Below are positions 280-14,759 of a stretch of 34,048 nucleotides of DNA, piece by piece. The translations under genes and the position numbers were made by a program. How positions within the stretch are numbered: the stretch's first letter is position 1; every line of letters begins with the position of its first letter. Origin of the DNA: Halomonas sp. (GTDB lineage: Bacteria > Pseudomonadota > Gammaproteobacteria > Pseudomonadales > Halomonadaceae); contig PUOM01000319.1 of assembly GCA_003552795.1 (NCBI GenBank), positions 1-34,048 of the forward strand. The letters run 5' to 3'. Under the pieces are notes generated by a model. It was not told the DNA's origin and did not search any database. It saw only the letters and a list, made by a program, of their open reading frames with translations.

Positions 280-2328
280 ATGGCGAACAACGCCCCCTCC
301 GAGCCATCGAGGGACCGGCTCAACCCCGTGGTCTTCCACGGCAGCGTGGCCGGCATCCTCGTCTTCCTCGTCCTCACCATGACCTTCACCGAGCAGGCCG
401 GCGCCTTCTTCGACGCCGGCCTGGCCTGGGTCAGCGAGACCTTCGGCTGGTACTACATGCTGGCCGTGATGGCCTATCTGGTCTTCGTGGTCCTGATCGG
501 CGCCTCGCGCTTCGGCAGCATTCGCCTCGGCCCCGACCACTCCCGGCCGGAGTTCTCGCTGCTCTCCTGGTCGGCGATGCTGTTCGCCGCCGGCATCGGC
601 ATCGACCTGCTGTTCTTCAGCGTGGCCGAGCCGGTGGCCCACTATCTGGCACCGCCCGATCTGGCGCCCGAGAGTCAGGAGGCCATGCGCAACGCCGTGG
701 TGCAGACCTACCTGCATTGGGGCCTCTCCGGCTGGGGACTCTACGTGCTGATGGGCATGGCGCTGGCCTACTTCAGCTATCGACATCGTCTTCCGCTGGC
801 GATCCGCAGCGCGCTCTATCCCCTGCTGGGCAAGCGCATCCACGGCCCCATCGGCAGCGCCGTGGACATCACCGCGGTGATCTCCACGGTGTTCGGCATC
901 GCCACCAGCCTCGGCATCGGCGTCATGCAGCTCAATTACGGGCTGGCCTACATGTTCGACGTGCCCGAGAGCCTCTCGGTGCAGGTGATCCTGATCGGCC
1001 TGGTGGTGGTGCTGGCCACCGTGTCGGTGGTCAGCGGCGTGGAGAAGGGCATCCGGCGCCTGTCGGAGTTCAACATGCTGCTGGCCCTGGCCCTGCTGCT
1101 GTTCGTGCTCTTCCAGGGCCACACCCTGCAGCTGCTCGACATGATGGTGAACAACGCCGGCGACTACCTGTCGGGGTTCGTCGCCAAGAGCTTCGACACC
1201 TACGCCTTCGCCGGCGAGGAGGCCCGGGAGTGGAAGATGTGGTGGACCATCTTCTTCTGGGGCTGGTGGATCGCCTGGACCCCCTTCGTGGGACTCTTCC
1301 TGGCGCGCATCTCCCGCGGGCGCACCATCCGCGAGTTCGTCGCCGGGGCGCTGGGCATTCCGCTGGCCTTCATGATGGTGTGGATGTCGGTGTTCGGTAA
1401 CAGCGGCATCGAACTGGTGGCCAACCAGGGCGTGGCGGAGCTTGGCGAGCAGGCCCTGAATACGCCCCAGACCACCCTCTACACCCTGCTCGAGCACTAT
1501 CCCTGGGTCGGCCTCACCGCCGCGGTGGTCACGGTACTGGGCATCGTCTTCTTCATCACCTCGGCGGACTCCGGGGCCCTGGTGCTGGCCAACTTCACCT
1601 CGATTCTCAGCGACGTGAACCACGATGCCCCGGTGAAGCTGCGCATCTTCTGGTCGGCGGTGATCGGCCTGGTCACCGTGGCCCTGCTGATGGCCGGGGG
1701 CCTGGCGGCGCTGCAGAGCGCGGTGGTGATCACCGCCCTGCCCTTCTCGCTGGTGATCTTTGCCATCATGTGGGGCATGTTCAAGGCCCTGAAGCTGGAG
1801 GGCAGCAAGGCCGACGCCCGCCGCCAGGTCTCCGGCACCGCTCCGGGCGGCGACTGGCGCGAGCGCCTCGACCGCGCCCTGGACACCTCCAACCGCGCCG
1901 GGGCCGCGGCCACCCTCGAGCACGCCATCCGTCCGGCGCTGACCCAGTTTGCCCAGGAGCTGGAGAGCCGCGGCCAGGAGGCCACGGTGACCGAGGAGCA
2001 GATCGAGGACGAGCCGCTGCCGCGCCTGACCCTGCAGGTGCTGCTGGGTGACGCCGCCAGCTTCGTCTACCAGGTGTGCCCGCACCGCCTGCGCACGCCG
2101 AGCTTCCTGGCGGTGGACGACGACTACTACGTGCGCCTGGATGTGTTCCTCGCCGAGGGCGGCACCGGCCAGGACCTCAACGGCTACACCCGCGGCCAGG
2201 TGATCGGCGACGTGCTCTCCGAGTACGAGCGCCACCTGCACTTCCTCGCCCTGGCCGGCGAAGGGGGCCAGGTGCAGGCTATGCCCGGCGCGGTGGGCGA
2301 ACTGCCGGACGACGCCACTCAGGGCTGA
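280..2328 (+). CDS. betT: BCCT-family choline transporter (BetT-like)
   Basis: This is a 682-residue secondary transporter of the betaine/choline/carnitine family, an inner-membrane protein that most likely takes up choline for glycine betaine synthesis during osmotic stress. About twelve hydrophobic segments occupy the first ~500 residues. The BCCT signature is clear: a tryptophan-rich run (WKMWWTIFFWGWWIAWTPF) followed by GLFLARISRGRTIREF. A ~150-residue cytoplasmic C-terminal tail makes the length close to E. coli BetT (677 aa); in BetT this tail is needed for osmotic activation. The ATG at 280 is chosen because AGGAG at 265-269 sits 10 bases upstream and the residues before it (from 202) do not look coding. 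The BetI-like palindrome upstream supports choline over carnitine or betaine, but substrate is inferred. A hairpin at 2364-2393 follows. Confidence 0.85.
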   Translation: MANNAPSEPSRDRLNPVVFHGSVAGILVFLVLTMTFTEQAGAFFDAGLAWVSETFGWYYMLAVMAYLVFVVLIGASRFGSIRLGPDHSRPEFSLLSWSAMLFAAGIGIDLLFFSVAEPVAHYLAPPDLAPESQEAMRNAVVQTYLHWGLSGWGLYVLMGMALAYFSYRHRLPLAIRSALYPLLGKRIHGPIGSAVDITAVISTVFGIATSLGIGVMQLNYGLAYMFDVPESLSVQVILIGLVVVLATVSVVSGVEKGIRRLSEFNMLLALALLLFVLFQGHTLQLLDMMVNNAGDYLSGFVAKSFDTYAFAGEEAREWKMWWTIFFWGWWIAWTPFVGLFLARISRGRTIREFVAGALGIPLAFMMVWMSVFGNSGIELVANQGVAELGEQALNTPQTTLYTLLEHYPWVGLTAAVVTVLGIVFFITSADSGALVLANFTSILSDVNHDAPVKLRIFWSAVIGLVTVALLMAGGLAALQSAVVITALPFSLVIFAIMWGMFKALKLEGSKADARRQVSGTAPGGDWRERLDRALDTSNRAGAAATLEHAIRPALTQFAQELESRGQEATVTEEQIEDEPLPRLTLQVLLGDAASFVYQVCPHRLRTPSFLAVDDDYYVRLDVFLAEGGTGQDLNGYTRGQVIGDVLSEYERHLHFLALAGEGGQVQAMPGAVGELPDDATQG

Positions 2329-2363
2329 TCGCCCGCTATGCGGGCCTCGAACCTCCAACGGAA

Positions 2364-2393
2364 AAACGGCGACGCCGCCAGGCGTCGCCGTTT
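2364..2393. terminator. Intrinsic terminator between betT and exaC
   Basis: A 13-base-pair perfect stem (2364-2376 with 2381-2393) with a GCCA loop. Reading on the plus strand it ends in TTT; reading on the minus strand it ends in TTTTT (complement of 2362-2366), so it can serve the convergent genes on both sides and is actually the better terminator for minus-strand transcription. Confidence 0.75.
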
Positions 2394-2542
2394 GCGTGAT
2401 CAGCCGCGCGGATCGCCGGCCGGCGACGTCAGGCCCCGGGTGACGCTGGCCAGCCGGGTCGGCTGTCCGAGTTCGGAATGCCACTCGCCGATACCGGAAA
2501 GCCGCACCCGATCGCCGTTGCGCCGCGTGTCGCCCGAAAGAC

Positions 2543-2568
2543 GGGGGCGCGACTCGCGTCGCGCCCCC
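2543..2568 (-). terminator. Strong GC hairpin after exaC
   Basis: An 11-base-pair perfect stem (2543-2553 with 2558-2568, loop TCGC) lies 46 bases beyond the stop of the minus-strand aldehyde dehydrogenase. The following minus-strand sequence is GTCTTTCG, so the T-tract is weak. It may terminate or protect the 3' end of exaC mRNA, with 2364-2393 as back-up. Confidence 0.45.
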
Positions 2569-2614
2569 GGATCGTTGCCCCTGATGGTCGGTCCTTGCTG
2601 TCGGCCCCTGGAAC

Positions 2615-4135
2615 TCAGAAGAAGCCCAGCGGGTTGGTGTCGTAGCTCACCAGCAGGTTCTTGGTCTGCTGGTAGTGCTCGAGCGCCACCTTGTGGGTCT
2701 CGCGGCCGACGCCGGACTTCTTGTAGCCGCCGAAGGCGGCGTGAGCCGGGTACTGATGGTAGCAGTTGGTCCACACCCGGCCGGCCTGGATGCCGCGGCC
2801 CATGCGGAAGGCGACGTTGATGTCGCGGCTCCACACCCCGGCGCCCAGCCCGAACTCGGTGTCGTTGGCGATGGCCAGCGCCTCGGCCTCGTCCTTGAAG
2901 GTGGTCACCGCCACCACCGGCCCGAAGATCTCCTCCTGGAAGACGCGCATCCTGTTGTTGCCCTTGAGCAGGGTCGGCTGGATGTAGAAGCCCTTGTCGA
3001 TGCTCGGATCCAGGCTCTCCTTGTCACCGCCGGTGAGGAACTCGGCGCCCTCTTCGCGGGCGATCTCCATGTAGGACATGATCTTGTCGAACTGCTCCTG
3101 GGAGGCCTGGGCGCCCACCTGGACGTCGGTATCGAGCGGGTTGCCGCGCTTGATCTGCCCCACCTTCTCCATGACCTTGGCCATGAAGGCGTCGTACATG
3201 GACTCCTGGATCAGCGCTCGGGAGGGGCAGGTGCACACCTCGCCCTGGTTGAAGAAGGCCAGCACCAGACCTTCTGCCGCCTTGTCGATGAACTCGGGCT
3301 CGGCGTTCATGATGTCGGCGAAGTAGATGTTCGGCGACTTGCCGCCCAGCTCCACGGTGGAGGGAATGATGTTCTCCGCCGCGCACTTGAGGATATGCGC
3401 GCCCACCGGGGTGGAGCCGGTGAAGGCGATCTTGGCGATGCGCTTGCTGGTGGCGAGCGCCTGCCCCGCCTCGGCGCCGTAGCCGTTGACGATGTTGACC
3501 ACCCCCGGCGGCAGCAGGTCGCCGACCAGCTTCATCAGCTCGAGTATCGAGGCCGGCGTCTGCTCGGCGGGCTTGAGCACCACGCAGTTGCCGGCGGCGA
3601 GCGCCGGGGCCAGCTTCCAGGTGGCCATCAGCAGCGGGAAGTTCCAGGGAATGATCTGACCGACCACGCCGAGCGGCTCGTGGAAGTGGTAGGCCACGGT
3701 GTTGGCGTCGATATCGGCGGCGGTGCCCTCCTGGGCGCGGATGCAGCCGGCGAAGTAGCGGAAGTGGTCCACGGCCAGCGGCAGGTCGGCGTTGAGCGTC
3801 TCGCGCACCGCCTTGCCGTTGTCCCAGGTCTCGGCGACGGCCAGGCTCTCGAGGTTCTGTTCGATGCGGTCGGCAATTCTGAGCAGGATATTGCTGCGCT
3901 CGGCGGCGGAGGTCCTGCCCCAGGCCGGGGCGGCGGCGTGGGCGGCGTCCAGGGCCTTGTCGATGTCCTCGGCGGTGGAGCGCGGGATCTGGCAGAACAC
4001 CTCGCCGTTGACCGGGCTGACGTTGTCGAAGTACTCGCCCTTGACCGGCGGCACGAACTCGCCGCCGATGTAGTTGCCGTAGCGCTCGTCGAAGGCGATG
4101 ACGGCGCCGGACTGACCGGGGTTGGTATAGATCAT
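2615..4135 (-). CDS. exaC: NAD-dependent acetaldehyde dehydrogenase (ExaC/AldB-like)
   Basis: This 506-residue cytoplasmic aldehyde dehydrogenase oxidises short aldehydes, probably acetaldehyde, to the acid with NAD(P). Visible landmarks: IIPWNFP with the oxyanion Asn165, Lys188 in VLKPAE, the FTGSTPVG nucleotide loop near 238-245, general base Glu262 in VELGGK, and nucleophile Cys301 in [11 protein letters not shown]. The CxC arrangement and [12 protein letters not shown] near the C-terminus are typical of the ExaC/AldB branch. The ATG at 4135 has AGGAG (4147-4143) seven bases upstream. It is divergent from the LuxR-type regulator at 4265. In Pseudomonas the homologous exaC belongs to the ethanol oxidation regulon controlled by ErbR and ErcS' relatives, so this neighbour is a likely activator (inference). 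A role in betaine aldehyde oxidation is less likely from the sequence type. Confidence 0.87.
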
Positions 4136-4226
4136 GGCGTGGCTCCTGAGTGTTGTGATTATGTCGGACACATCCCAGTCTTGGTCACGCCGCGCTTCTA
4201 CGACATACTCCGGTGGCATGAGACCC

Positions 4227-4246
4227 CCTCCTCCCTTGGGAGGAGG
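4227..4246. promoter_or_regulatory. Inverted repeat in the exaC/response-regulator intergenic region
   Basis: CCTCCTCCC (4227-4235), TT, then GGGAGGAGG (4238-4246) form a perfect inverted repeat immediately upstream of the Shine-Dalgarno GGGAG (4254-4258) of the response regulator. In mRNA the stem would be eight pairs with a CTTG loop and could hide or expose a purine-rich ribosome entry region. Alternatively it is a DNA operator in the shared divergent promoter. No T-tract follows, so it is not a terminator. Confidence 0.4.
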
Positions 4247-4264
4247 CCCCGACGGGAGAACGCG

Positions 4265-4942
4265 ATGATGACCCTGATGGTCGCCGATGACCATCCCCTG
4301 TTCCGCGACGCCATCGGCGCGGTGATCGCGGCGGGCCTGCCGGGCACCCGCCTGCTGGAGGCGGACAGCCTGATGCGAGCCATGCAGCAGGCCGAACGCC
4401 ACGAGGAGAGCCTCGACCTGCTGCTGCTGGACCTCGACCTTCCCGATGCCGAGGGCCTCGACGGTCTGCGCCGGCTGCGCGCGACCCTCCCCGCGCTGCC
4501 GGTGGCCATCCTCTCGGCGGAGCAGGACCGGCGCACGGTGCTGGCGGCGATCGAGATGGGCGCGGTGGGCTACATCCCCAAGTCGACGCCACGCGACGAC
4601 CTGCTGGCGGCCCTGCGCCAGCTCCTCGAAGGGCAGCTCTACCTGCCACCCCAGGTGATGCGCCGCCCGCCTCCCGCACACCCGGCGCCCGCCGTCACCG
4701 CCGCCGCTGCTGACCCGCGCCTGGCGCGTCTCACCGACAAGCAGCTCGAGGTGCTCGAGCGGCTCAGCCAGGGCGCTTCCAACAAGGACATCGCCCGGCA
4801 GCTGAATATCGCCGAGACCACGGTGAAGACCCATGTCTCCGCCATCCTCAGAAAGCTCGGCGTCACCCGCCGCGTTCAGGCCATGCTGCTGGCCGGCGAG
4901 CTGGACCTGCCCGCCTATCGGGCCGGGCGTCGCTCCGGCTGA
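4265..4942 (+). CDS. LuxR/NarL-type response regulator (ErbR/AgmR-like)
   Basis: This 225-residue two-component regulator has an N-terminal receiver domain (1-125) with acidic pair Asp8/Asp9, probable phosphoacceptor Asp56 in LLLLDLDLP and Lys106. A Pro/Ala-rich linker (134-150) leads to a LuxR-type helix-turn-helix (155-215: [32 protein letters not shown]). The start ATGATG at 4265 has GGGAG six bases upstream; the second ATG is possible. It lies divergent to exaC and its 3' end overlaps the 3' end of the sensor kinase on the other strand by 28 bases. By analogy with ErbR (AgmR) of Pseudomonas alcohol oxidation it probably activates exaC and other alcohol oxidation genes when phosphorylated by the nearby kinases. 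Target and partner are inferred from position. Confidence 0.83.
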
Positions 4943-6321
4943 TGGCCCAGCAGCGTGGTCAGCAGCAGGCGCAGGCGCAGCGGCTTGATCGGCTTGAGCA
5001 GGCAGTCATAGCCGGCCTGACGTATCCGCGCCTTGAGCGCCGCGTCGTGATTGGCGGTGATCACCACCACCGGCAGCCCCGGGTGGGCCTCACGTAGCCC
5101 GGCGGCGACCTCGAGCCCGTCGGGCTGATCGTCGCCCAGGTGGTAATCCACCATCAGCACGGCCGCTGTCTCGCTCGCGTGTCGCTGGAGTTCGAGAGTC
5201 GATCCCACGGCCAGCACCCGACACCCCCAGCTCCCCAGCAGGGCCTCCATGCCCTCGCGGATCGCCGCGTCATTGTCCACCACCCAGATGCGCTCGCCGG
5301 CCAGGGGCTCCCCGCTCGGCGTCGGCTCTCGGCGATCGACGGACGACCGGGTCCCCCTGGCGTAGGGCACCGTCACCGAGAACAGCGAGCCCCGCCCGGG
5401 CGCCGAGACCAGGCCCAGCGGGTGGCCGAGCATGCCGCTGATGCGGTCGACGATGGCCAGCCCCAGGCCCAGCCCGCGATCCACGCCCTCGCGGCTCGCC
5501 GAGATGCGCCGGAACTCCTCGAAGATCTCCCGCTGCTGCCCGGGTGCGATCCCCGGCCCGGTATCGCCCACCAGGATCTCCAGCCCCTCCGGGCGGCGCC
5601 GACAGCCCAGCAGGATGCGGCCCCGGGCGGTGTAGCGAATGGCATTGCCGAGGAAGTTGCGCACCACCCGGGCCAGCAGCGCCAGGTCGGTCTCGATCAG
5701 CGCTCGCGTGGGCACGTGGTGGAAGGCCAGGCCCCTGGCCGCGGCCATCTGGCGATACTCCTCCGCCAGCACGCCCAGCAGCTCCTCGGCGGGAAAGGGT
5801 GCGATATCGGGCCTGAGCACCCCGGCATCGAGCCGGGAGATGTCCACCAGGCTGCCGATCAGCGCCTCGACGTCCTTGAGCGAGCGTCCGATATTGCCGA
5901 CCAGACGACGGGAATCGTCCGGCAGCGGCTGCTCCTCCAGGGCGCTGGCGAACAGGCGCGCGGCGTTGAGCGGCTGCAGCAGGTCGTGGCTTACCGCGGC
6001 GAGAAACTTGGTCTTGGAGAGATTGGCCGCCTCGGCCTCCGCCTTGGCCCGCTGCAGCTCCCCCAGGGTGCGCTGCAGGGTCTCGGTGCGCTCGCGCACC
6101 TGCTCGGCCAGCAGCACCGAGTGCTCGAAGGCCGCATAGGGCGCCCCGCCGGGCAGCCCGCTGGACTCCACCCGCTCGATCAGCGCCGCGCAGATGCGCC
6201 GCAGCCGGGCGTTCTCCTCGGCCAGCAGCGCCGCCCGGGCGTCAGGCGCCTCGGGCAGCGCCGCCGGGTCGAGGGGCGCCAATGGCCACCCCGGTGAAGG
6301 TCTGGTTGATGTGCATGCCAT
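4915..6321 (-). CDS. Soluble hybrid sensor kinase, NahK/ErcS'-like
   Basis: A 468-residue hybrid histidine kinase without membrane segments. An N-terminal coiled coil (about 28-100) precedes the H-box [13 protein letters not shown] with His112, the N-box around Asn226 ([10 protein letters not shown]), the G1 box GDTGPGIAP (252-260) and GLGLGLAIV (283-291). A C-terminal receiver (343-460) has VVDND, phosphoacceptor Asp392 in MVDYHLGDD and Lys443 in [19 protein letters not shown] is the form seen in the NahK/ErcS' group. The start at 6321 is supported by GGGGAG (6334-6329) seven bases upstream, which makes the gene begin 80 bases inside the FIST gene in another frame. It is last in the minus-strand operon and probably takes its input from the FIST protein. 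Likely output is the response regulator at 4265. Confidence 0.84.
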
Positions 6322-7444
6322 GGTACTGCTCCCCGTATGTGTTGAAGCCGATGACCCGGCTGCCGGCCAGCAGGTCGGAGACCTGGGCCTGCTGGCCGAG
6401 CACCTCGAGCTCCAGGCGCCTCAGGAAACAGTCGCAGCCGATCACCAGCTCGGTGGCCCCGAGGCGCTCCTCGAGCCCTGCCAGCGTCCGGACCAGGTCG
6501 TCACGGATCGGGGCGGACGCCATGGCCGTGAGCACGATGCCGTTCTCCACGGCGCAGTAGAAGCTCAGGCTGCCGTCCTGGTTGGCGCGCTGGATGGAGC
6601 GCACGAAGTAATGATCACCGATGCGCACCGCCAGCGGGTGCCGGGCGAACAGCTCCGGTCCCAGCCGCGCCACCGGCTGGCCCACCAGGGCCGCATAGGC
6701 CTCCACGGCGGGGGCGGCATTGAGCTCCAGCACCCGCCGAGACTCCCGGTCGACGGCGGTGACCACCAGCTTCTCGTGCCGCGGCCGCAGATGATGGGTC
6801 GTGAAGACCTCGAAGGGCAGCGGCGTATTGACCAGCAGCACCACGGCGGCCTCGGTGTGGAAGCGCCCGTGGCAGAACACATGGGTGCGGGCGAGGCGGT
6901 TATCATCCCCGGCCGAGCCGCCGAAGCTGGGAATGCTGCCCAGGGCCGCATCGAGGGTGGCGATCACGCTCTCCTCGCTGCTCGAGAGGCCGTCGAGCAG
7001 GGTCACCACGAAGCTGTTGTCCGCCAGCGGCGCCAGGGCCCGCTCGCGGCACCGCCCGAGCAGGTCATCCACCAGCCCCTGGGCGCGAGGCAGGTCGAAG
7101 GCCTCCAGCCCCTCGACCAGCGCCGGCGCCAGCGCAAAGTGGCGCCGATCGAAGCCGATCGCCACGATGCCGCCGCGGGCATAGCCCGCCGGGGTAATCT
7201 CGCCGGCGGTGGTGCAGCCGGCCACGGGCACGCCGCCGAAGGCCCCCTCCAGCGCCCGGGAGAGCGCGTCGAGGGGGTACTCGGCGCTGCAGAAGAAGAG
7301 CACGAAGCCCAGCGATGCCTGCGGCAGGCCGGCGGCGAGCTCCGCCACGGCGTCGGCCGGATCGGACCGATGACTGACCGCGGCGCGCAGCGGGGCCACC
7401 CCGGCAGGCAGTGGAGCGAGAAGCGGATGGGTGGCATCTGGCAT
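6242..7444 (-). CDS. FIST-domain sensory protein
   Basis: A 400-residue soluble protein with FIST_N followed by FIST_C domains. FIST proteins are thought to bind small ligands, perhaps amino acids, and are coded beside signal transduction genes. The diagnostic FIST_N motif VPVAGCTTAGEI is at about 72-83 (Cys77), and SFGGSAGDDN lies near 185-195. The C-terminal half carries the FIST_C region, ending after [13 protein letters not shown] and [14 protein letters not shown] at 7444 is preferred over the one at 7483 because GGAG (7454-7451) sits six bases upstream and the earlier start would run into the upstream kinase gene. It is 14 bases downstream of that hybrid kinase gene and overlaps the next kinase gene by 80 bases, so it is sandwiched between two kinases in one operon. 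The ligand is unknown. Confidence 0.83.
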   Translation of the reverse strand: MPDATHPLLAPLPAGVAPLRAAVSHRSDPADAVAELAAGLPQASLGFVLFFCSAEYPLDALSRALEGAFGGVPVAGCTTAGEITPAGYARGGIVAIGFDRRHFALAPALVEGLEAFDLPRAQGLVDDLLGRCRERALAPLADNSFVVTLLDGLSSSEESVIATLDAALGSIPSFGGSAGDDNRLARTHVFCHGRFHTEAAVVLLVNTPLPFEVFTTHHLRPRHEKLVVTAVDRESRRVLELNAAPAVEAYAALVGQPVARLGPELFARHPLAVRIGDHYFVRSIQRANQDGSLSFYCAVENGIVLTAMASAPIRDDLVRTLAGLEERLGATELVIGCDCFLRRLELEVLGQQAQVSDLLAGSRVIGFNTYGEQYHGMHINQTFTGVAIGAPRPGGAARGA

Positions 7445-7458
7445 CGTGAGCTCCGAGT

Positions 7459-9636
7459 TCAGCGAGCCGGCAGGGGCCGCCATGGCTCCAGCGCGGCCAG
7501 GGTGGCGATCAGGCAGGCGTTCAGCTCGTCCAGCAGACGCCGTGCCGCCTCGTCCTCTTGCCGGACGACCAGCGCCTCCACCCGAGCGGCAAGCCCCGCC
7601 ATCTTGTGCGCCCCCAGGCTGGAGGACTCCCCCTTGAGCTGGTGCGCCGCGTGCCGGGCTGCCGATAGATCGTCCTCGCCGAGCGCGTGCGTCAGGGTCG
7701 CCAGTCGCCTTTCGGCCTGGACGTCGAAGAGCTCCACCAGAGAGGCGAGCCCCTCTTTTCCCAGGGAGTCATGCAGCGCCTGCAGGGTCAAGGGGTCAAC
7801 CAGGCTATCGTGCCCCGACGCCTCGGGCACGTCGCTCTCTCCCGGGGACGCCTCCCCTTCGGCCAGGTAGCGCAGCAGCGTCTCCAGCAGCAGCTCCTGA
7901 CGCAGCGGCTTGGCCAGGTAGCCGTTCATGCCGGCGGCCAGGCAGCGGTCCTGCTCGCCTCCGGGACCGGCGGCGGTCATCGCCACGATAGGCACATCCG
8001 CCGCCCAGCCGCCACGGGCGCGAAGCCGCCGGGTCACCTCGAGACCGTCCATGTCCGGCATCTGAATATCCATGAAGATCAGGTCGAACCGGTCCGCCGC
8101 CACCAGCTGCAGGGCGGCCCCTCCGGAGGCGGCGAGGGTGACCGAACAGCCCAGGCACTCCAGCATGGCCCTTGCCACCTGCTGATTAACGGGATTGTCC
8201 TCCACCACCAGCAGGTGGGCGCCTGACAGGTCCGCACGGCGCAGGCGTCTGGCCGCAGGCAATGCCGGCGGATCCCCCCCCTGGACGGTGGGCAGGGAGA
8301 GCAGGAACCAGAAGCGGCTCCCGACTCCGGGTTCACTGTCCACCTCGAGGCGTCCCCCCATGGCCTCCACCAGGCGGCGGCAGATCGCCAGCCCCAGCCC
8401 GGTCCCCCCGAAGCGCCGCGCGGTGGAGGCATCACCCTGCCGGAACGGCTCGAAGATACGCGAGAGCTGTTCCGGGGCGATGCCACAGCCGGTATCCACC
8501 ACCTCGAAGCGGATTCGATCGTTCTCTCCCACACTGACCGCCAGGCGGATCTCCCCCTCCTCGGTGAATTTCACCGCATTGGAGACCAGGTTGATCAGTA
8601 CCTGGCGCAGGCGTCCCGGATCGGCCAGCACCCGCTCGGGGAGCTGCGGATCCAGATGCGCGAGCAGCATTACACCGCGCGCCTCGGCGCGCGGTGCGAG
8701 CAGCACCACCACACCGGCGACAAGCTCGTTCAGCGCCAGGGCACGATGCTCCAGCTCGAGACGCCCGGCTTCGATCTTGGAAAAGTCCAGCAGATCGTTG
8801 ATCAGCTCCAGCAGCAGTCCGGCGCTGTCATGGATGGTGGCCACATGCTGGCGCACCGTTCTCTCGAGCCGGTGCTCCAGCAGCAGCTCACTCATGCCGA
8901 TGACGCCGTTGAGGGGCGTACGGATCTCGTGGCTGACGGTGGCCAGGAACTCCGACTTGGCCTGGCTGGCCGACTCCGCCTTCCGGGCGGTGGCCTCGAG
9001 CTCTCGGCTCAACACCTCCAGATTCCGCCGGGCCACGGCGTTGTCCCGGGCCTCGCGGAACAGGATCAGCGCCACCAGCATGGCCGACAGGCTCATCGCC
9101 AGGATCAGCACCAGCAGCAGGGCATAGAGCCGCTGCAGCTGGCCACGCTCCTGGGTGGCCGTGTCGGCCAGATGGCCATTGATGGCGATCACCAGCCGCT
9201 CGGTGCGATTGCTCAAGGTATCCAGCTGCCGGTCCAGTGCCTGGCGGTCGCTCGCCTGCAGCGCCTCGAGCCCCTGGATCATGCGCTCGAGAGACTCGGT
9301 GCGCTGCTCGATCTCGTCCAGCAGGGCGCCGGCGGCAGGAGCCGAGGCCAGCAGCTCGGTGATATCGCCGCCTTCGCGCATGAGGTTCAGGCGGCTGTAG
9401 AAGAGCTCGAAGCGCAGCCCCAGCCCCTCGAGGCTGGCGTCGGGCTGTGCCAGGTAGCTGCGCAGCTGGACCACATCCCGATCGAGCTTGTAGGCATGCC
9501 AGGCGGTGTCCCCCCCGGCACTCTGGGCCAGGCTGTCCTGGCGCCAGGAGACCAACCCCACCACCACCAGCGCCGCGGCCAGCAGCAGCAGCGCGCTGAT
9601 GGCGCCAAGCTTGACTCGCAGAGGCAGGCGCAGCAT
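7459..9636 (-). CDS. Membrane hybrid histidine kinase with receiver and Hpt domains
   Basis: A 725-residue BarA/ArcB-type phosphorelay kinase. A first membrane segment (~9-30) and a second (~169-193) bracket a helical periplasmic domain of ~135 residues. A coiled-coil linker leads to the H-box ATVSHEIRTPLNG with His236, N-box Asn353 (NLVSNAVKFT), DTGCGIAP (381-388) and FGGTGLGLAI (409-418). The receiver (473-590) has Asp523 in FMDIQMPDMDG and Lys576; a terminal Hpt domain carries His665 in AAHQLKGESSSLG. ATG at 9636 has GGGAG six bases upstream; an earlier in-frame ATG at 9690 would overlap the upstream gene. It follows the periplasmic SUOX-like gene by 23 bases and precedes FIST. The likely arrangement is periplasmic protein to kinase to Hpt to a response regulator, possibly the LuxR-type one at 4265. 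Confidence 0.87.
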   Translation of the reverse strand: MLRLPLRVKLGAISALLLLAAALVVVGLVSWRQDSLAQSAGGDTAWHAYKLDRDVVQLRSYLAQPDASLEGLGLRFELFYSRLNLMREGGDITELLASAPAAGALLDEIEQRTESLERMIQGLEALQASDRQALDRQLDTLSNRTERLVIAINGHLADTATQERGQLQRLYALLLVLILAMSLSAMLVALILFREARDNAVARRNLEVLSRELEATARKAESASQAKSEFLATVSHEIRTPLNGVIGMSELLLEHRLERTVRQHVATIHDSAGLLLELINDLLDFSKIEAGRLELEHRALALNELVAGVVVLLAPRAEARGVMLLAHLDPQLPERVLADPGRLRQVLINLVSNAVKFTEEGEIRLAVSVGENDRIRFEVVDTGCGIAPEQLSRIFEPFRQGDASTARRFGGTGLGLAICRRLVEAMGGRLEVDSEPGVGSRFWFLLSLPTVQGGDPPALPAARRLRRADLSGAHLLVVEDNPVNQQVARAMLECLGCSVTLAASGGAALQLVAADRFDLIFMDIQMPDMDGLEVTRRLRARGGWAADVPIVAMTAAGPGGEQDRCLAAGMNGYLAKPLRQELLLETLLRYLAEGEASPGESDVPEASGHDSLVDPLTLQALHDSLGKEGLASLVELFDVQAERRLATLTHALGEDDLSAARHAAHQLKGESSSLGAHKMAGLAARVEALVVRQEDEAARRLLDELNACLIATLAALEPWRPLPAR

Positions 9637-9659
9637 GCAAGGCTCCCGATGGCTGCCCC

Positions 9660-10175
9660 TCAGAGGGCGTGAATGTGCACGGTATGCCACACCGAGCGGA
9701 AACGCACGGTCTCGTTGAGCAGTTCCGGGTGCTCGTCGAAGGGGTAGAGCACGAACAGCGGGCCAAACTCGCGAATCTGCAATGGCGACCCGTTGCGTTT
9801 CATGGCCAGGATGACATCGTACTCATGCAGCTGGGCGAGGGGGATCTCCGCCTCGAAGTCGTTCAGCGCCCTGACCCGAACGCGCTCGCCGCGCACGCCG
9901 GCCGCCGCCAGGACCTCCCGCAGCAGCGGCCCCTCGTAGCGGCCGAGATCGGGGTGCCAGGGCGTCCGGGTCTCGGTCACGGTGGGAGCGATATCCATCA
10001 GCATCTCGCGATCGAACAAGGCCTCGTCGCCCACGTTGGGACAGTCGATGTTCCCGCTGATGGTGAGCAGCACCTCGCCGCTCGGCTCGGGCAGCGCCTC
10101 GCCGGCGAAAGCCGACGACGGCAGCCACAGGAGCGGCACGAGGGCGAGCAGGAGGGGCAGGACGCGTCGGCGCAT
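9660..10175 (-). CDS. Periplasmic SUOX-fold (molybdopterin-oxidoreductase-like) protein, probably non-catalytic
   Basis: A 171-residue exported protein with a signal peptide (leucine-rich core 5-19, probable cleavage after AFA at 22-24). The mature part resembles a single oxidoreductase molybdopterin-binding (SUOX-like) domain: YEGPLLREVLAAAGV, then an acidic stretch, then LAMKRNGSPLQIREFGPLFVLYP, which matches the usual NGxPL...GPLRLxxP region of the fold. The only cysteine of the mature protein is Cys45 in NIDCPN, which is not where the molybdenum-ligating cysteine is expected, so cofactor binding is doubtful. ATG at 10175 has GGGAG seven bases upstream. It is the first gene of the kinase operon, and I infer that it delivers a periplasmic signal to the kinase downstream. 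Small proteins of this type often neighbour sensor kinases or GGDEF proteins. Confidence 0.65.
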   Translation of the reverse strand: MRRRVLPLLLALVPLLWLPSSAFAGEALPEPSGEVLLTISGNIDCPNVGDEALFDREMLMDIAPTVTETRTPWHPDLGRYEGPLLREVLAAAGVRGERVRVRALNDFEAEIPLAQLHEYDVILAMKRNGSPLQIREFGPLFVLYPFDEHPELLNETVRFRSVWHTVHIHAL

Positions 10176-10266
10176 GAGAGCACTCCCGGGGCAGGAATCA
10201 TGATGGCGCACAAGCCTACCCCATCACGCCACAAAGGTCAGTCGGGACATGCCTCCCCGATGACCA

Positions 10267-10755
10267 TCATGGTGCCTGGCGGGCCGATTCCGACAGGCGC
10301 TCCTCCAGGCCATCCAGCAGCCGCTGCAGATAGCGAGCACGCTGCTCCCACACCGCATTGCGGTGCAGCTGGCGCGACAGCGGCAGCAGCTCCGGGTCGC
10401 CCAGACCCGACTCGGCCAGCTGGCCATGATAGGTCTCGACCAGCGCCAGGTCGGCTTCCCGCGCGGGTTCCCAGGCAGCCCGGGAGGCCTCGAGCGCCAG
10501 GCGTGCCTCCCGCCCGAGCACCTTGTCCAGCCGGGCGCCAAGGCGCCCGACCTCCTCCTCCCAGCGGCCCCCGGCTTTCCGGGCGCAGCGCAGGGCAGGC
10601 TCGGGCTGTCCCTGAGCCTCGGCCAGGCAGGCGTCGAGCTCGTGGGCAATGAGATGACCGCCCGCGGACACGGTGAGGGGAAGAGGCTGAGCGTGGATCG
10701 GCATCAGGGGTAGCCACAGGAGCGGCAGGCAGGCAAGCGGGCGCGGTATCGGCAT
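10267..10755 (-). CDS. Secreted LprI/DUF1311-like protein
   Basis: A 162-residue protein with a signal peptide (PLACLPLLWLPLMPIHA, cleavage likely after residue 22). The mature part is helical and charged, with two cysteines, Cys43 (LDACLAEA) and Cys57 (LRCARKA), and the pattern W-x3-V-x-x-L...AL-x2-S-x-AAW-x3-R. This recalls the lysozyme-inhibitor LprI N-terminal family (DUF1311), but the match is weak. ATG at 10755 has AAGG seven bases upstream; the longer reading from 10821 would include the palindrome at 10799-10816 and is rejected. It is 91 bases upstream of the SUOX-like gene on the same strand and may be cotranscribed with it. Function is not established. Confidence 0.6.
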   Translation of the reverse strand: MPIPRPLACLPLLWLPLMPIHAQPLPLTVSAGGHLIAHELDACLAEAQGQPEPALRCARKAGGRWEEEVGRLGARLDKVLGREARLALEASRAAWEPAREADLALVETYHGQLAESGLGDPELLPLSRQLHRNAVWEQRARYLQRLLDGLEERLSESARQAP

Positions 10756-10798
10756 GGCATCACCTTGCGGACGCTGGCCCCGGGCCAGCAATGAGAAA

Positions 10799-10816
10799 GG
10801 GGGCATCGATGCCCCC
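10799..10816 (-). terminator. Perfect 18-base palindrome, probable terminator of the DUF2189 gene
   Basis: GGGGGCATCGATGCCCCC is a perfect palindrome 36 bases beyond the stop of the minus-strand DUF2189 gene. On the minus strand it is followed by TTTCTC. It could fold into a short terminator stem, or act as an operator for the LprI-like gene that starts at 10755. Confidence 0.5.
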
Positions 10817-10851
10817 AGCATAGTGGCCAGACTCCGTCGGGGCGAGGCAGC

Positions 10852-11679
10852 TCACCCCTGCAGCGGCTCGCTCTCCTCGATCACCTCGACGCGCACCAGA
10901 TCCTCGTAGGCATGCCAGCTGGCATGGCCCAGCACCGGCAGGATAAGCGCCAGCCCGATGTAGAAGGTCATCACCCCCACCAGCACGCAGCCGGTCAGGA
11001 TGGCCGCCCACAGCAGCATCGGGCGGAAGTTGCGGGCCACGGAGCGCACGCTGGCCTCGATCCCCTCCATGAAGGTGAGGTCATGGTGCATCAGGGTCGG
11101 GATCGCCACCGCACTGATGGTGAAGGCCCCGAAGGCGAGAATGCCGCCCATTACCGTCCCCACGGCGATCATGCCCAGCCCCTGAGGCGTGGTGAGCAGG
11201 GCCGAGTAGAGCGTGGCAGGGCTCGGGACCTCGAAGCCGAAGAAGAGGGCGAAGAGCAGGGTCGCCAGGCGAATCCAGGCGAGGAAGAAGATCATCATCA
11301 TCACGCCCATCATGGCGAGCTGACCGGCGTGGGGTCGCCAGGCCCCGAAGGCATCCCCCAGATGCGGCGCCCGGTTGGCCTCCAGCGCTCGGCTGACGCC
11401 GTAGGAGCCCACCGCCACCAGCGGGCCGACAAACATGAAGCCCGCCACCATGGGCAGCAGCCAGTGCCACAGCCCCAGGATGATGGCGCCTGCGGTGATG
11501 GCAATGCTCAGGCCCACCCAGAACATGCCGTAGGCAAGACTCACCGCCGTCGCCTGGCGGAAGTCCTCGATGCCGGCTGCCAGCCAGGCCCGCGGCCGAT
11601 CCATGCCCACCGGGTTGATGGTGATCTTGACCCTGGGCGCTGCAGCCTTGTCATTCGCTCTTGTTGTTGCCGCGTTCAT
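10852..11679 (-). CDS. DUF2189 integral membrane protein
   Basis: A 275-residue inner-membrane protein with about six hydrophobic segments (around 50-70, 78-100, 140-170, 180-205, 230-255). It matches the DUF2189 family, sometimes annotated as cytochrome c oxidase subunit I-like; recognisable parts are VGPLVAVGSYGVSRALE and a region with the histidine pair TLMHHDLTFMEGIEAS. The N-terminal ~30 residues are polar and alanine-rich. ATG at 11679 has AGGGG about eight bases upstream and replaces a poorer start at 11733. It is divergent from the fccA cytochrome gene across 270 bases. The biochemical role of the family is not known, and linkage to the sulfur genes may be coincidental. Confidence 0.75.
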   Translation of the reverse strand: MNAATTRANDKAAAPRVKITINPVGMDRPRAWLAAGIEDFRQATAVSLAYGMFWVGLSIAITAGAIILGLWHWLLPMVAGFMFVGPLVAVGSYGVSRALEANRAPHLGDAFGAWRPHAGQLAMMGVMMMIFFLAWIRLATLLFALFFGFEVPSPATLYSALLTTPQGLGMIAVGTVMGGILAFGAFTISAVAIPTLMHHDLTFMEGIEASVRSVARNFRPMLLWAAILTGCVLVGVMTFYIGLALILPVLGHASWHAYEDLVRVEVIEESEPLQG

Positions 11680-11875
11680 GCTGTCACCCCTGTTGCGCCA
11701 TGTGATGCCCGCCTGGCGGGCCAACCCCGACACAGACCCATGCCTTCATGCCGGCTTCATCGCTTAACACAGTTTTAATGTAGCTGAGCGGGATCAATTC
11801 TGCAGACGCGGGACGCCGCGGCTTTCCACGGTGTGGGCCAAGCGGCTTCTTCATAAGGCGATCACGAAACGTTCT

Positions 11876-11905
11876 TTGGGCACATCAGCGCGGCTGCCAT
11901 AGCAT
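11876..11905 (+). promoter_or_regulatory. Possible sigma-70 promoter for the fcc/tsuA/soxYZ operon
   Basis: TTGGGC at 11876-11881 and TAGCAT at 11900-11905 are separated by 18 bases, 45 bases before the fccA start. The match to -35/-10 consensus is partial (3/6 and 4/6). The remainder of 11680-11949 is AT-richer than the genes, as expected for a divergent promoter region, and holds no ORF I can support. Confidence 0.3.
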
Positions 11906-11949
11906 TAAGATCCCGATAGCCTTCCTAAAAGAAAAAAGGGGAACTGACG

Positions 11950-12297
11950 ATGATCCTGTCATGGCGCCGGGCGTCGACCCTGTCGATTGTCCTGCTGCTT
12001 GGTGGCCTGGCCAGCACGGCCCAGGCCGAAAACGAGTTTTCCCGCGAGCAGCTCGAGGTGATGGCCGGCGGCTGCGCCAGCTGCCACGGCACCGACGGTC
12101 GCCTCGCCGGCGCGGTCCCCGCCATTGCCGGCCGCCCGGCATCGCTGCTGGAGTCCCGCATGCTCGCCTTCAAGGCCGATGAGGTGGAGGACACCACCGT
12201 CATGAACCGCATCGCCAAGGGCTTCAGCGATGAGGAGCTGGCCGCGCTGGCCCGGCACTTCGCCGAGAACCCCGGCCCTCAGGGAGACGTACCATGA
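11950..12297 (+). CDS. fccA: Cytochrome c subunit of flavocytochrome c sulfide dehydrogenase
   Basis: A 115-residue periplasmic class I c-type cytochrome. A signal peptide (hydrophobic 11-20, cleavage after AQA at 24-26) is followed by one haem site CASCH (Cys42, Cys45, His46) and a probable axial ligand Met85 in TTVMNRIAKGFSDEE. The size fits a monohaem FccA rather than the dihaem form of Allochromatium. It overlaps the next gene by four bases (ATGA at 12294), so the two are translationally coupled. It would accept electrons from the FAD subunit coded next and pass them to the respiratory chain. Partner assignment rests on the fccB neighbour, which is clear. Confidence 0.82.
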   Translation: MILSWRRASTLSIVLLLGGLASTAQAENEFSREQLEVMAGGCASCHGTDGRLAGAVPAIAGRPASLLESRMLAFKADEVEDTTVMNRIAKGFSDEELAALARHFAENPGPQGDVP

Positions 12298-13628
12298 GCC
12301 AGCACGACGACCGGACTCGTCACACCCGCCGCCCCGGGCTGACCCGCCGCCAGCTGCTGCAGGGCATGGGGGCCGCCTCCACCCTGCCCCTGCTGGGCGG
12401 CATCGCCCCCTTCGCCATCGCCAACGGCTCCGCCGGCCGCGTGGTGGTGATCGGCGGCGGCTTCGGCGGCGCCACCGCCGCCAAGTACCTCAAGCGGGCC
12501 AACCCGGCCATCGAGGTCACCCTGGTGGAGCCCGCCGAGGTCTTCTACACCTGCCCGTTCAGCAACCTCTTCCTGGGCGGCCTGCGCGACATGCGCTCCA
12601 TCGCCCACGGCTATGACGAGCTGCGCGACCGCTACGGCGTGCGGGTGGTGCACAGCCTGGCCGAGGACGTCGACCCCGACGGCCACCGCGTGCACCTCGC
12701 CAACGGCGAGACCCTGGCCTATGACCGCCTGGTGCTCTCGCCGGGCATCGACTTCCGCTGGAACGGCCTGGAGGGCTACGACGAAGCCGCCGCCGAGCTC
12801 GCCCCCCACGCCTGGAAGGCCGGCGCCCAGTCGGAGCTGCTGCGTCGCCAGCTCGAGGCGATGGACGACGGCGGCACCTTCGTGATGGTGGCGCCGGAAA
12901 ACCCCTACCGCTGCCCGCCGGGGCCCTACGAGCGTGCCAGCCTGGTGGCCCACTACTTCAGTCAGCACAAGCCCAACTCGAAGGTGCTGATCCTCGACGC
13001 CAAGGACAGCTTCTCCAAGCAGGGGCTGTTCACCGCCGGCTGGGAGCGCCTCTACGGCGACCGCATCGAATGGGTCGGGCTCTCCGACGACGGCCGGGTG
13101 ACCCGGGTCGACGCCGAGAACCTGGAGGTGGAGACCGAGTTCGGCACCCGTCATCGGGCCGACGTGCTCAACGTCATTCCTCCCCAGAAGGCGGGCTTCA
13201 TCGCCGAGCGCGCCGGGGTCACCGACGACTCCGGCTGGGTGCCGGTCAAGCCGGCGACCTTCGAGTCCGAGCGCGTCCGCGACGTCTACGTGGTGGGTGA
13301 CGCCACGGTGGCGGCCCCGATGCCCAAGTCGGGCTTCTGTGCCAACAACCAGGCCAAGGTGGTGGCCGCGGCCATCGCCGCGGAGCTCTCGGGCCGCAGC
13401 GCGCCGGAGCCCTACTGGACCAACACCTGCTACAGCCTGATCGGCCCCGAGTACGGCATCTCGGTGGCCGGGGTCTACCGGGTGCAGGAGGGCGTGATCG
13501 CCGAGGTGGAGGGGGCCGGCGGGCTGAGCCCGGCCGATGCGCCGGACCATATCCGCGCCCTGGAAGCCGAGTACGCCGTGGGCTGGTACAACGCCATCTG
13601 CCAGGACACCTGGGGCACCAGCGTCTGA
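12294..13628 (+). CDS. fccB: Sulfide dehydrogenase flavoprotein subunit
   Basis: A 444-residue FAD protein of the sulfide:quinone reductase/flavocytochrome c superfamily that oxidises sulfide to sulfur in the periplasm. A Tat signal is visible (Arg18-Arg19 in TRRQLLQ, hydrophobic 27-43). The dinucleotide fold starts with VVVIGGGFGGATAA (50-63). Cys207 in NPYRCPPGPYERA and Cys349 in SGFCANNQA correspond to the redox-active cysteine pair known from FccB (161/337 in the mature Allochromatium protein). VYVVGDAT (331-338) is the second FAD contact and a FccB-specific C-terminal domain follows. The ATG overlaps the fccA stop, and AGGGAGA sits upstream. A hairpin at 13654-13673 separates it from the next gene. 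Assignment is firm; polysulfide or thiol substrates cannot be excluded. Confidence 0.88.
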   Translation: MSQHDDRTRHTRRPGLTRRQLLQGMGAASTLPLLGGIAPFAIANGSAGRVVVIGGGFGGATAAKYLKRANPAIEVTLVEPAEVFYTCPFSNLFLGGLRDMRSIAHGYDELRDRYGVRVVHSLAEDVDPDGHRVHLANGETLAYDRLVLSPGIDFRWNGLEGYDEAAAELAPHAWKAGAQSELLRRQLEAMDDGGTFVMVAPENPYRCPPGPYERASLVAHYFSQHKPNSKVLILDAKDSFSKQGLFTAGWERLYGDRIEWVGLSDDGRVTRVDAENLEVETEFGTRHRADVLNVIPPQKAGFIAERAGVTDDSGWVPVKPATFESERVRDVYVVGDATVAAPMPKSGFCANNQAKVVAAAIAAELSGRSAPEPYWTNTCYSLIGPEYGISVAGVYRVQEGVIAEVEGAGGLSPADAPDHIRALEAEYAVGWYNAICQDTWGTSV

Positions 13629-13653
13629 CACGGTAGCGACGGTATGATGCGCA

Positions 13654-13673
13654 GGGCCGCCCTTGGGTGGCCC
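13654..13673 (+). promoter_or_regulatory. Intercistronic hairpin between fccB and tsuA
   Basis: GGGCCGCCC (13654-13662) can pair with GGGTGGCCC (13665-13673), with one G-U pair and a very short TT loop that probably opens to four bases. Only a weak T-rich stretch follows (CGCTTGTTG). It may attenuate or stabilise mRNA between the coupled fcc genes and the transporter. Confidence 0.3.
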
Positions 13674-13702
13674 CGCTTGTTGAATGACCGAAGGAATCGC
13701 CG

Positions 13703-14737
13703 ATGAGCCATACCGAACTGGTGGCCTGGTCGGGCCTGGTGATCGGACTCGTCTTCGGCGCCACCGGCCAGGCCACCGGCTTCTGCCTGATGCGCGGCCT
13801 GGCCAACGCCTGGACCCGACACGACACCCTCAAGCTGCGCGCCTTCGCCCTGGCCATGGCAGTGGCGCTGCTGGGCACCCAGGCACTGGCGGCCTTCGGC
13901 GTGCTCTCCCTGGGCGGCGCTCTCTACCTGCCGCCCGGCGCCTCCTGGCTGGCGGTGCCCCTGGGCGGCGTGCTGTTCGGCTACGGCATGACCCTGGCCA
14001 ACGGCTGCGGCGCCCGCTCCCTGGTGCTGCTGGGCGGCGGCAACCTGAGAAGCTTCGTGGTGCTGGTCTGCCTCGGGCTCGCCGCCGGCATGACGCTCTC
14101 CGGCCTGCTCGCCCCGCTGCGGGTCTGGCTGGAAGGCGCCACGTCGCTCGCGCTGCCCGCCCGGGACCTCCCTCGGCTACTCGGCGTGCCCGCCTGGCTG
14201 CCGGCCCTCGTGCTGGGCGGCGCGCTCAGCGCCTGGGCGCTGGCGAGCCGCGACTTTCGCGCCTCGCCGCGAGAGTGGCTCGGCGGACTCGTCATCGGCG
14301 CCCTGGTGCCCGCAGGCTGGGTCGCCACCGGCGTGCTGGGCTTCGATGACTTCGAGCCGGTACGCCTGGCCACCCTCACCTTCATCGCCCCCATCGGCGA
14401 CAGCCTGCAGTACGCCATGCTGGCCACCGGCACCCGCCTCGGCTTCGGCGTCAGCGTGGTGGGCGGCGTGCTGGCCGGTGCCCTGGCCATGGCGCTCCTG
14501 CGCCGGGACTTCCGCTGGCAGGGCTTCAGCGGGCCCGGCCAGATGGGCCGCAGCATGGCCGGTGGCGCCCTGATGGGCATCGGCGGCGTGCTGGCCCTGG
14601 GCTGCTCCATCGGCCAGGGGCTCTCCGGCTTCTCGACCCTGGCGCTGCCCAGCTTCGCGGCCCTGGCCGGCATCGTCGCCGGCGCCCGGCTGGGGATCAG
14701 GGGGCCGCTTTCACTGTCCAATGCGCCGACGACCTGA
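13703..14737 (+). CDS. tsuA: YeeE/YedE-family thiosulfate (sulfur-compound) transporter, TsuA-like
   Basis: A 344-residue polytopic inner-membrane protein of the YeeE/YedE family. TsuA members import thiosulfate by relaying it past conserved cysteines. Three candidate cysteines sit in typical small-residue motifs: Cys28 in GQATGFCLMRG, Cys102 in LANGCGARS and Cys301 in LALGCSIGQGLSG. About nine to ten hydrophobic segments are present. The start at 13703 has AAGGAA six bases upstream. It lies between fccB and the soxYZ-like gene, all in one direction with gaps under 75 bases. The context suggests uptake or export of thiosulfate, sulfide-derived sulfur or another thiol compound linked to periplasmic sulfur oxidation. 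Exact substrate is an inference. Confidence 0.78.
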   Translation: MSHTELVAWSGLVIGLVFGATGQATGFCLMRGLANAWTRHDTLKLRAFALAMAVALLGTQALAAFGVLSLGGALYLPPGASWLAVPLGGVLFGYGMTLANGCGARSLVLLGGGNLRSFVVLVCLGLAAGMTLSGLLAPLRVWLEGATSLALPARDLPRLLGVPAWLPALVLGGALSAWALASRDFRASPREWLGGLVIGALVPAGWVATGVLGFDDFEPVRLATLTFIAPIGDSLQYAMLATGTRLGFGVSVVGGVLAGALAMALLRRDFRWQGFSGPGQMGRSMAGGALMGIGGVLALGCSIGQGLSGFSTLALPSFAALAGIVAGARLGIRGPLSLSNAPTT

Positions 14738-14759
14738 CCGACCCACAGGAACCTGCCCA

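Follow-up and report, generated by a model that had tools for sequence, protein, structure and literature searches.

Several described signalling systems share parts with the locus analyzed here, which lies in a 34,048-nucleotide stretch of Halomonas sp. DNA (GenBank assembly GCA_003552795.1, contig PUOM01000319.1; hereafter the window) and brings together a NosP protein, a soluble NahK-type hybrid kinase, a LuxR-type response regulator, the acetaldehyde dehydrogenase gene exaC and a periplasmic PruR-type protein with its membrane kinase. In Pseudomonas aeruginosa, nosP (PA1975), nahK/ercS' (PA1976), erbR/agmR (PA1978) and exaC (PA1984) belong to the exa/ped cluster, with P. putida counterparts PP_2663-PP_2665 and PP_2680 in the same listing (PMC12997753). 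The same review takes up NosP-NahK in connection with swarming and the dispersal of biofilms, and proposes, without settling the matter, that PedS1, a NahK homologue, may tune the alcohol cluster through pairing with a further kinase. The window locus resembles this cluster in its four shared components, its putative LuxR-type activator of alcohol oxidation and its hybrid kinase beside NosP. It differs in four ways: the NahK is devoid of PAS domains, a conserved tandem operator separates the divergent exaC and regulator genes, no pyrroloquinoline quinone (PQQ) genes were found in its genome, and a PruR-DTB pair lies directly upstream of NosP-NahK.

PruR proteins are periplasmic pterin-binding proteins of about 170 aa in which a Trp replaces the Mo-binding Cys, and together with a TorS- or BaeS-like kinase they form 'PruR-DTB' (DcpA-TorS-BaeS) systems (PMC13259868). 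The window pair shares this size, the Trp-for-Cys replacement and a gene order in which PruR immediately precedes a TorS-like membrane kinase, as well as the Phe-for-Tyr replacement noted in Halomonas elongata. It differs in having Asp at the acidic position of the WX7E motif, in possessing an Hpt domain, absent from the review's legend, and in adjoining NosP-NahK. Two further systems pair NosP with a kinase. Burkholderia NosP controls soluble NosK, which like the window NahK has no recognised sensor domain, but the output of NosP-NosK-NosR is a degenerate HD-GYP protein (PMC12570481), and that of the window locus would be a DNA-binding regulator. In Legionella, NosP likewise controls NahK, which phosphorylates the response regulator NarR, but the output is cyclic di-GMP turnover (PMC8846402).

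Our search of the open-licence literature, mostly titles and the beginnings of abstracts, returned no published report of a NosP/PruR-DTB linkage or of the tandem operator. An earlier reading of the window from its sequence alone (the sequence-only reading) had known of no described system with the full set of genes; this holds for the combination, but not for its parts, since nosP, nahK/ercS', erbR and exaC are tabulated together (PMC12997753) and PruR-DTB operons have been described (PMC13259868). The components are thus known, and what appears to be new is the packing of NosP with PruR-DTB and the conserved operator beside exaC.

A NosP-NahK module and a LuxR-type regulator beside exaC

The reading that we favour, with somewhat better than even confidence, is that NosP-NahK drives a LuxR-type regulator of exaC, and that PruR-DTB, probably co-transcribed with it, constitutes a second input that may converge on the same regulator. 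The source assembly comprises 2.87 Mb in 336 contigs and is 86.7% complete. Five intact open reading frames occupy positions 4265-10175, with the plus-strand regulator facing four minus-strand genes and exaC lying beyond the regulator, from which it is divergent (Table 1). The 3' ends of the regulator and soluble kinase genes overlap by 28 bases, tail to tail. Both the placement of this five-gene island beside exaC and the residues His112, Asp392, Asp523, His665 and Asp56 agree with the sequence-only reading, which had also correctly recognized a FIST protein, hybrid kinases and a LuxR regulator. It had left NosP unnamed and termed the PruR protein "SUOX-like"; the likely signals, nitric oxide (NO)/heme and pterin, are later additions.

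Table 1. Features of the locus, in window coordinates.
Feature	Position	Strand	Support
exaC, acetaldehyde dehydrogenase, 506 aa	2615..4135	-	NF050026 AcaldDHExaC, 963.3 vs 900 bits
Predicted tandem operator, TCCTNCCANNGGA-N10-TCCTNCCANNGGA	4209..4244	-, toward exaC	Conserved in relatives
NarL/LuxR-type response regulator, 225 aa, phospho-acceptor Asp56	4265..4942	+	Pfam Response_reg and GerE
Soluble PAS-less NahK/ErcS'-type hybrid kinase, HisKA-HATPase-REC, 468 aa, His112, Asp392	4915..6321	-	NF041832, 487.9 vs 400 bits
NosP, FIST/FIST_C protein, 400 aa	6242..7444	-	NF041558, 543.6 vs 450 bits; Pfam PF08495 and PF10442
DTB-type membrane hybrid kinase, periplasmic part and HisKA-HATPase-REC-Hpt, 725 aa	7459..9636	-	Pfam
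PruR-type periplasmic pterin-binding protein, 171 aa, Asn105/Phe107/Trp163	9660..10175	-	phmmer, PDB 7RKB 3.8e-33, 7KOS 4.1e-32
LprI-like gene, probably secreted product	10267..10755	-	Pfam LprI, E 0.0069, under gathering score
DUF2189 membrane protein	10852..11679	-	PF09955, 118.4 bits

The FIST protein scores above the cut-off of the curated NCBIfam model for NosP, and its closest named relatives are from Halomonas. By analogy with characterized relatives it is likely to sense NO or heme. Two of its residues, His218 and His378, are invariant in all 123 distinct aligned rows. The nosP gene overlaps the start of the adjoining kinase gene by 80 bases, and the encoded kinase passes the NahK/ErcS family domain model. 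The full-length NahK/ErcS' model that includes the PAS region (NF041831) gives the window kinase 478 bits against a cut-off of 1500, and no Pfam PAS match was found in it. Its residues 1-90 and 71-459 align with residues 23-109 and 484-892, respectively, of a relative's PAS-bearing NahK of 899 aa, so that it retains the N-terminal segment (60% identity) and lacks the PAS part (approximately residues 110-483) of the long form. This absence suggests that NosP is the likely only sensor of the window NahK. Other FIST arrangements were seen among relatives: a single 782-aa protein in which FIST domains are fused to a histidine kinase ATPase domain (L064, 7195-9543), a second FIST class with about 42-43% identity to NosP and similarly long frames in some relatives, and, in Halomonas sp. 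PA16-9, a NosP match split across two frames (L002, 11306-12371) that may reflect a frameshifted copy or a sequencing error.

The regulator's Asp56 is present in 125 of 127 MAFFT-aligned rows, the other two being gapped. ErdR, the top NCBIfam model (NF041830), was rejected as its identity at 160.6 bits against a cut-off of 390. A separate regulator class scoring about 140 bits with the same model occurs in most of the same genomes, and we infer that this one corresponds to ErdR; the accessible text on the P. aeruginosa ErdR binding motif offers no letters for comparison (PMC9927353). Its gene order with NosP-NahK marks the window regulator as putatively ErbR/AgmR-like. NosP-NahK, this ErbR-like regulator and exaC together bear out the link to the ethanol-oxidation circuit proposed by the sequence-only reading.

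We surveyed the 80 best NosP relatives among genome contigs, a sample that leans to the kin of the window. Gene order was read mainly by tblastn, since gene calls still miss genes (empty rows L002, L052, L062 and L063), and counts were repeated on distinct sequences because some loci represent the same contig twice (for example L037 and L125). The LuxR-type gene is convergent to NahK in 77 of the 80 loci and exaC lies nearby in 74, a conservation that the sequence-only reading had put forward as a check. The regulator class, defined by a line at >165 bits that was drawn after seeing the scores, was then located in 58 relatives, including the window's own genome. It is present in 31 of 32 genomes with an unfused NosP and in none of the 26 without, and in the sole miss (G002) the contig ends after the start of NahK. 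The regulator therefore tracks NosP by profile, which points to it as the partner of NahK and does not tie DTB to it.

In the likely pathway from NosP through NahK and the regulator to exaC, cytoplasmic NosP, by analogy with its relatives, would bind NO (or heme) and set the activity of the PAS-less NahK. As co-occurrence and position suggest, phosphate from NahK would then pass, perhaps via a relay, to the LuxR-type regulator, which would bind two boxes between its own gene and exaC and control acetaldehyde oxidation; in some relatives it may also control a zinc alcohol dehydrogenase.

A conserved tandem operator between the regulator and exaC

The gap between the two divergent genes contains two boxes of TCCTNCCANNGGA, at 4232-4244 without mismatches and at 4209-4221 with one, repeated at a distance of 23 bases. 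Conservation over the 130 bases upstream of exaC reaches 1.01 bits per column (98 distinct sequences) and upstream of the regulator 0.80 (104), compared with 0.47 for PruR (40), 0.53 for DUF2189 (67) and 0.33 for NosP (116); the row sets differ between genes, and three further upstream regions are unfair controls because they are coding (NahK, 1.18; Usp, 1.10) or partly coding (DTB, 0.71). The operator occurs with at most 4 mismatches in 20 positions upstream of 93 of 96 regulator-adjacent exaC genes (82 of 85 distinct sequences), a count in which most positives also served to derive the motif.

A further 15 exaC genes (14 distinct) have no regulator within 700 bases. Eight of these (7 distinct) have 1-3 mismatches and the other seven 5-8. 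At all eight low-mismatch loci a zinc alcohol dehydrogenase gene intervenes between the regulator and exaC. The dehydrogenase gene and exaC are each preceded by the operator; the copy before the dehydrogenase gene, which shares its gap with the LuxR-type gene, has 2-4 mismatches. The motif was built from regulator-exaC gaps, and the 7 distinct exaC promoters of this type played no part in it. In L063, L075, L076 and L077, where exaC has no regulator nearby, 6-8 mismatches were found, and 37 background pieces gave 6-10.

In the window's own genome, a scan with the 31-base tandem pattern identified the local site as the only one free of mismatches, with two others at 2 and 3 mismatches; this is no excess that would indicate a wider regulon in that genome, given that a reversed-pattern control also yielded two matches. 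A single-box search of the window returned 33 matches against 38 expected, no more than chance, so only the conserved tandem form is meaningful. Among the long-NahK clusters scanned with the matrix, none had a match above the line. Co-occurrence and position thus predict that the tandem boxes are the binding site of the regulator and lend support to the earlier proposal that the regulator controls exaC; their upstream position would suit an activator.

A PruR-DTB pair directly upstream of NosP

The protein described as SUOX-like by the sequence-only reading has the features of PruR: a length of about 170 aa, SUOX similarity, Trp in place of Cys, and Phe and Asn in the pterin site, together with an N-terminal signal-like stretch as judged by eye. 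Trp163 is present in all 84 distinct aligned relatives, and position 107 is Tyr in 53 and Phe in 31. It is therefore likely a PruR-type pterin sensor, its ligand being assigned by analogy with relatives. SUOX enzyme activity was rejected, as Trp replaces the Mo-ligating Cys as in PruR proteins (PMC13259868). PQQ, considered as a ligand on account of the frequent pqq neighbours, was not supported either, since PruR-DTB is found in genomes lacking pqqB, the window's own included.

The dtb gene lies directly downstream of pruR after a gap of 23 bases, as in DTB kinases, and its product has key residues Trp46/Asp54, His236, Asp523 and His665; its top NCBIfam model is TorS, at 458.1 bits under a cut-off of 676.5. 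The periplasmic motif reads WX7D rather than the published WX7E, with Trp46 in all 84 distinct relatives and position 54 Asp in 79 and Glu in 5, and by this alignment corresponds only loosely to the DTB motif. The Hpt His is kept in 89 of 89 distinct relatives. Two more PruR-kinase pairs are found in the same genome, at L195 1048-3695 (contig C190) and L196 5341-8787 (contig C267), each adjoining a gene for a DNA-binding response regulator (domains read by eye); the L195 kinase, a DTB paralogue, has the exact WX7E motif.

Adjacency was counted in 75 loci, the 5 of 80 with less than 3.2 kb of upstream sequence having been dropped. In 42 of them NosP is immediately preceded by PruR and DTB, and each of the 42 has a short NahK. 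The loci without adjacent PruR-DTB comprise 25 with a short and 8 with a long NahK, where long denotes a NosP-to-kinase-core gap exceeding 700 bases; three of these eight (L128, L129 and L134) show just a single piece and may instead contain an insertion. In this compact form, the gap between DTB and NosP is at most 206 bases in 41 loci and 466 in one. It recurs in Halomonas, Vreelandella, Billgrantia and Halovibrio, Vreelandella boliviensis LC1 (L176) being one carrier, and recurrence across the Halomonadaceae indicates that the grouping is not due to chance.

A family survey drew 151 genomes evenly, of which 79 had a match and 78 remained after dropping one with only a kinase-fused FIST protein (G012). 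PruR lies less than 3 kb from NosP in 22 of these and 3-20 kb away in 25. In 10 it is more distant but still on the same contig, and in 9 the two genes are on different contigs; the remaining 12 have no PruR place listed, for want of a match or with a weak one (G084, G100 and G134 have weak matches on other contigs). In all 47 genomes linked within 20 kb, PruR is upstream of NosP on the same strand. At the wider-spaced loci that were read, a fructose phosphotransferase system (PTS) operon or pqq/erc genes separate DTB from NosP. Across the 76 labelled rows of the NosP tree, PruR-DTB adjacency must have changed at least four times, gain and loss not being separable. The linkage thus looks old within the family, with cargo differing between species. 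Among 274 genomes of the class, NosP was found in 12 (E up to 1e-40), PruR in 4 (E up to 1e-12) and both in the window's genome only, in a search with one query each that may miss distant kin.

The side of DTB facing away from PruR is a variable spot in L071-L074, L078, L082, L083, L087 and L103-L109, where the cargo differs between genomes. It may be a fructose PTS protein, accompanied at some loci by 1-phosphofructokinase and a Cra-like regulator; elsewhere it consists of pqq/erc genes or of genes of the glucosidase type. In Halomonas alkalisoli (L167), PruR-DTB-NosP-NahK is followed by pqqB-pqqC-pqqE-ErcA.

No terminator-like site was found between 10267 and 4915 by a simple and weak scan (4 sites in the region against 2.4 expected), making it plausible that the minus-strand genes from 10267 to 4915 form a single transcript. 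DTB would then probably be transcribed with NosP-NahK. Periplasmic PruR would bind pterin and act on the periplasmic part of DTB, so that PruR-DTB, likely as a sensor, would add a pterin input to that transcript. Two points are purely inferred: an action of DTB on the exaC regulator, and the direction in which control operates.

An ordinary Pseudomonas-like NosP-NahK-ErbR-ExaC set beside an unrelated kinase would be a simpler account, and the listing of PA1975, PA1976, PA1978 and PA1984 with the ped/exa cluster (Table 1 of PMC12997753) agrees with it. However, the adjoining kinase belongs to a PruR-DTB pair whose linkage recurs, the window NahK is without PAS domains, and the single Pseudomonas locus examined (L187) showed no tandem operator; we regard this account as improbable.

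One regulator or two neighbouring circuits

The sequence-only reading had proposed that two inputs, one periplasmic and one cytoplasmic, converge on one regulator. Both sensors are present, but convergence does not follow, as the regulator tracks NosP and not PruR. With a PruR threshold of E up to 1e-8, at which weaker paralogues are included, PruR is found in 38 of the 58 relatives, 28 with NosP and 10 without.

This distribution bears on an alternative to which we assign a probability just short of even: NosP-NahK-LuxR-exaC and PruR-DTB may be separate neighbouring circuits, the latter with its output elsewhere, brought into adjacency where the variable cargo is absent. In many relatives PruR-DTB adjoins TRAP transporter, Usp and DUF2189 genes, and its other side varies between the NosP module, fructose PTS, pqq/erc genes and exaC alone, as separate circuits would allow; the genomes with only one of the two modules point the same way. 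Harder to reconcile with it are the identical strand and order in 47 of 47 linked genomes and the recurrence of the compact form in four genera and 42 of 75 loci.

Several observations weigh against the favoured reading of a NosP-NahK-driven regulator with PruR-DTB as second input. In 10 of 58 genomes a PruR is present although NosP and the regulator are both missing, so that DTB must have another output in some species, and NosP and the regulator occur without PruR in 4 of 58, so that DTB is dispensable for the core circuit. PruR is not placed within 20 kb of NosP in 31 of the 78 family genomes, and L167 has the four signalling genes without the regulator or exaC in view. Three regulator-adjacent exaC genes have a poor operator (5, 6 and 6 mismatches, the latter two in L052 and L187), an exaC without a close regulator (L062) comes as near as 5 mismatches, and derivation of the motif drew on most of the promoters scored as positives. 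Because the rows are related, the counts do not represent independent events. A scan of 2300-11950 returned no sigma-70 promoter-like site. Finally, NosP signalling is reported to act elsewhere on HptB/RsmA in P. aeruginosa (PMC12997753) and on cyclic di-GMP in Legionella (PMC8846402), not on aldehyde oxidation.

PQQ genes and Hpt domains

Descent of the cluster from a PQQ-dependent exa/ped ethanol cluster, sensing alcohol or aldehyde rather than NO and with NosP as a heme or redox sensor, is a further alternative that we consider unlikely, if less so than the simple Pseudomonas-like set. Some long-NahK relatives (L110, L049/L080) carry LuxR-NahK-NosP-ErcS-ErcA-pqqE-pqqC-pqqB-DTB-PruR in one stretch, and the Pseudomonas review links AgmR/ErbR and exaC homologues with alcohol oxidation (PMC12997753). 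Furthermore, pqqB scores over the cut-off in 10 of 11 long-NahK genomes and in 5 of 19 short-NahK genomes, being absent from the other 14, the window's own included (Fisher p 0.0017, uncorrected for kinship); this count left out G037 and G041, two short-NahK genomes of other families with no pqqB over the cut-off. The window's own genome argues the other way, since at 87% completeness it has no detectable pqqB and its PQQ-repeat matches fall in a single 410-aa frame, which is not the gene content expected of a PQQ-dependent exa/ped circuit, yet module and operator are intact. Absence of pqqB from most short-NahK genomes indicates that the compact circuit mostly runs without PQQ enzymes.

No Hpt domain was matched in the window NahK, which has a receiver. 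Five Hpt domains were found in the 87% complete assembly, all within larger proteins as read by eye: a CheA-like protein, DTB, the DTB paralogue, a hybrid kinase and, where a contig ends, a receiver-Hpt protein. A NahK without Hpt in a genome whose Hpt domains all reside in larger proteins makes DTB a possible hub, and in a two-receptor relay the NO/heme state of NosP and the reduced-pterin state of PruR would combine on one regulator through the Hpt of DTB. We hold such a relay to be improbable. A stand-alone Hpt protein may be encoded in the missing 13% of the genome, and NosP genomes without PruR indicate that DTB is dispensable elsewhere.

Neighbouring genes

Judged by similarity to the window copy, the LprI-like gene upstream of pruR is present in 7 of the 80 loci. 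A terminator-like site at 10816-10799 lies immediately upstream of it, and it is possibly the first gene of the minus-strand transcript. The DUF2189 gene beyond it is a common PruR-DTB neighbour in many relatives. On the other side of exaC lies a betaine/carnitine/choline-type (BCCT) transporter gene (280-2328, plus strand). Sulfur-oxidation genes adjoin the island at 12294-15578 (plus strand), encoding a flavocytochrome c sulfide dehydrogenase-like flavoprotein, a PF04143 sulfur-transport protein and, in a single open reading frame, a fusion of SoxY and SoxZ domains.

Implications

The papers that we found regard NosP-NahK chiefly as a switch for biofilm formation or motility. Were the two-receptor relay true, alcohol oxidation would be switched by two redox-linked small molecules together. 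PruR-DTB kinases, for which no target was reported in the literature that we found, gain a testable candidate. The compact form of the system, mostly free of PQQ genes, has a single regulator, a single operator and no more than one or two target genes, and occurs in halophiles that are easy to grow.

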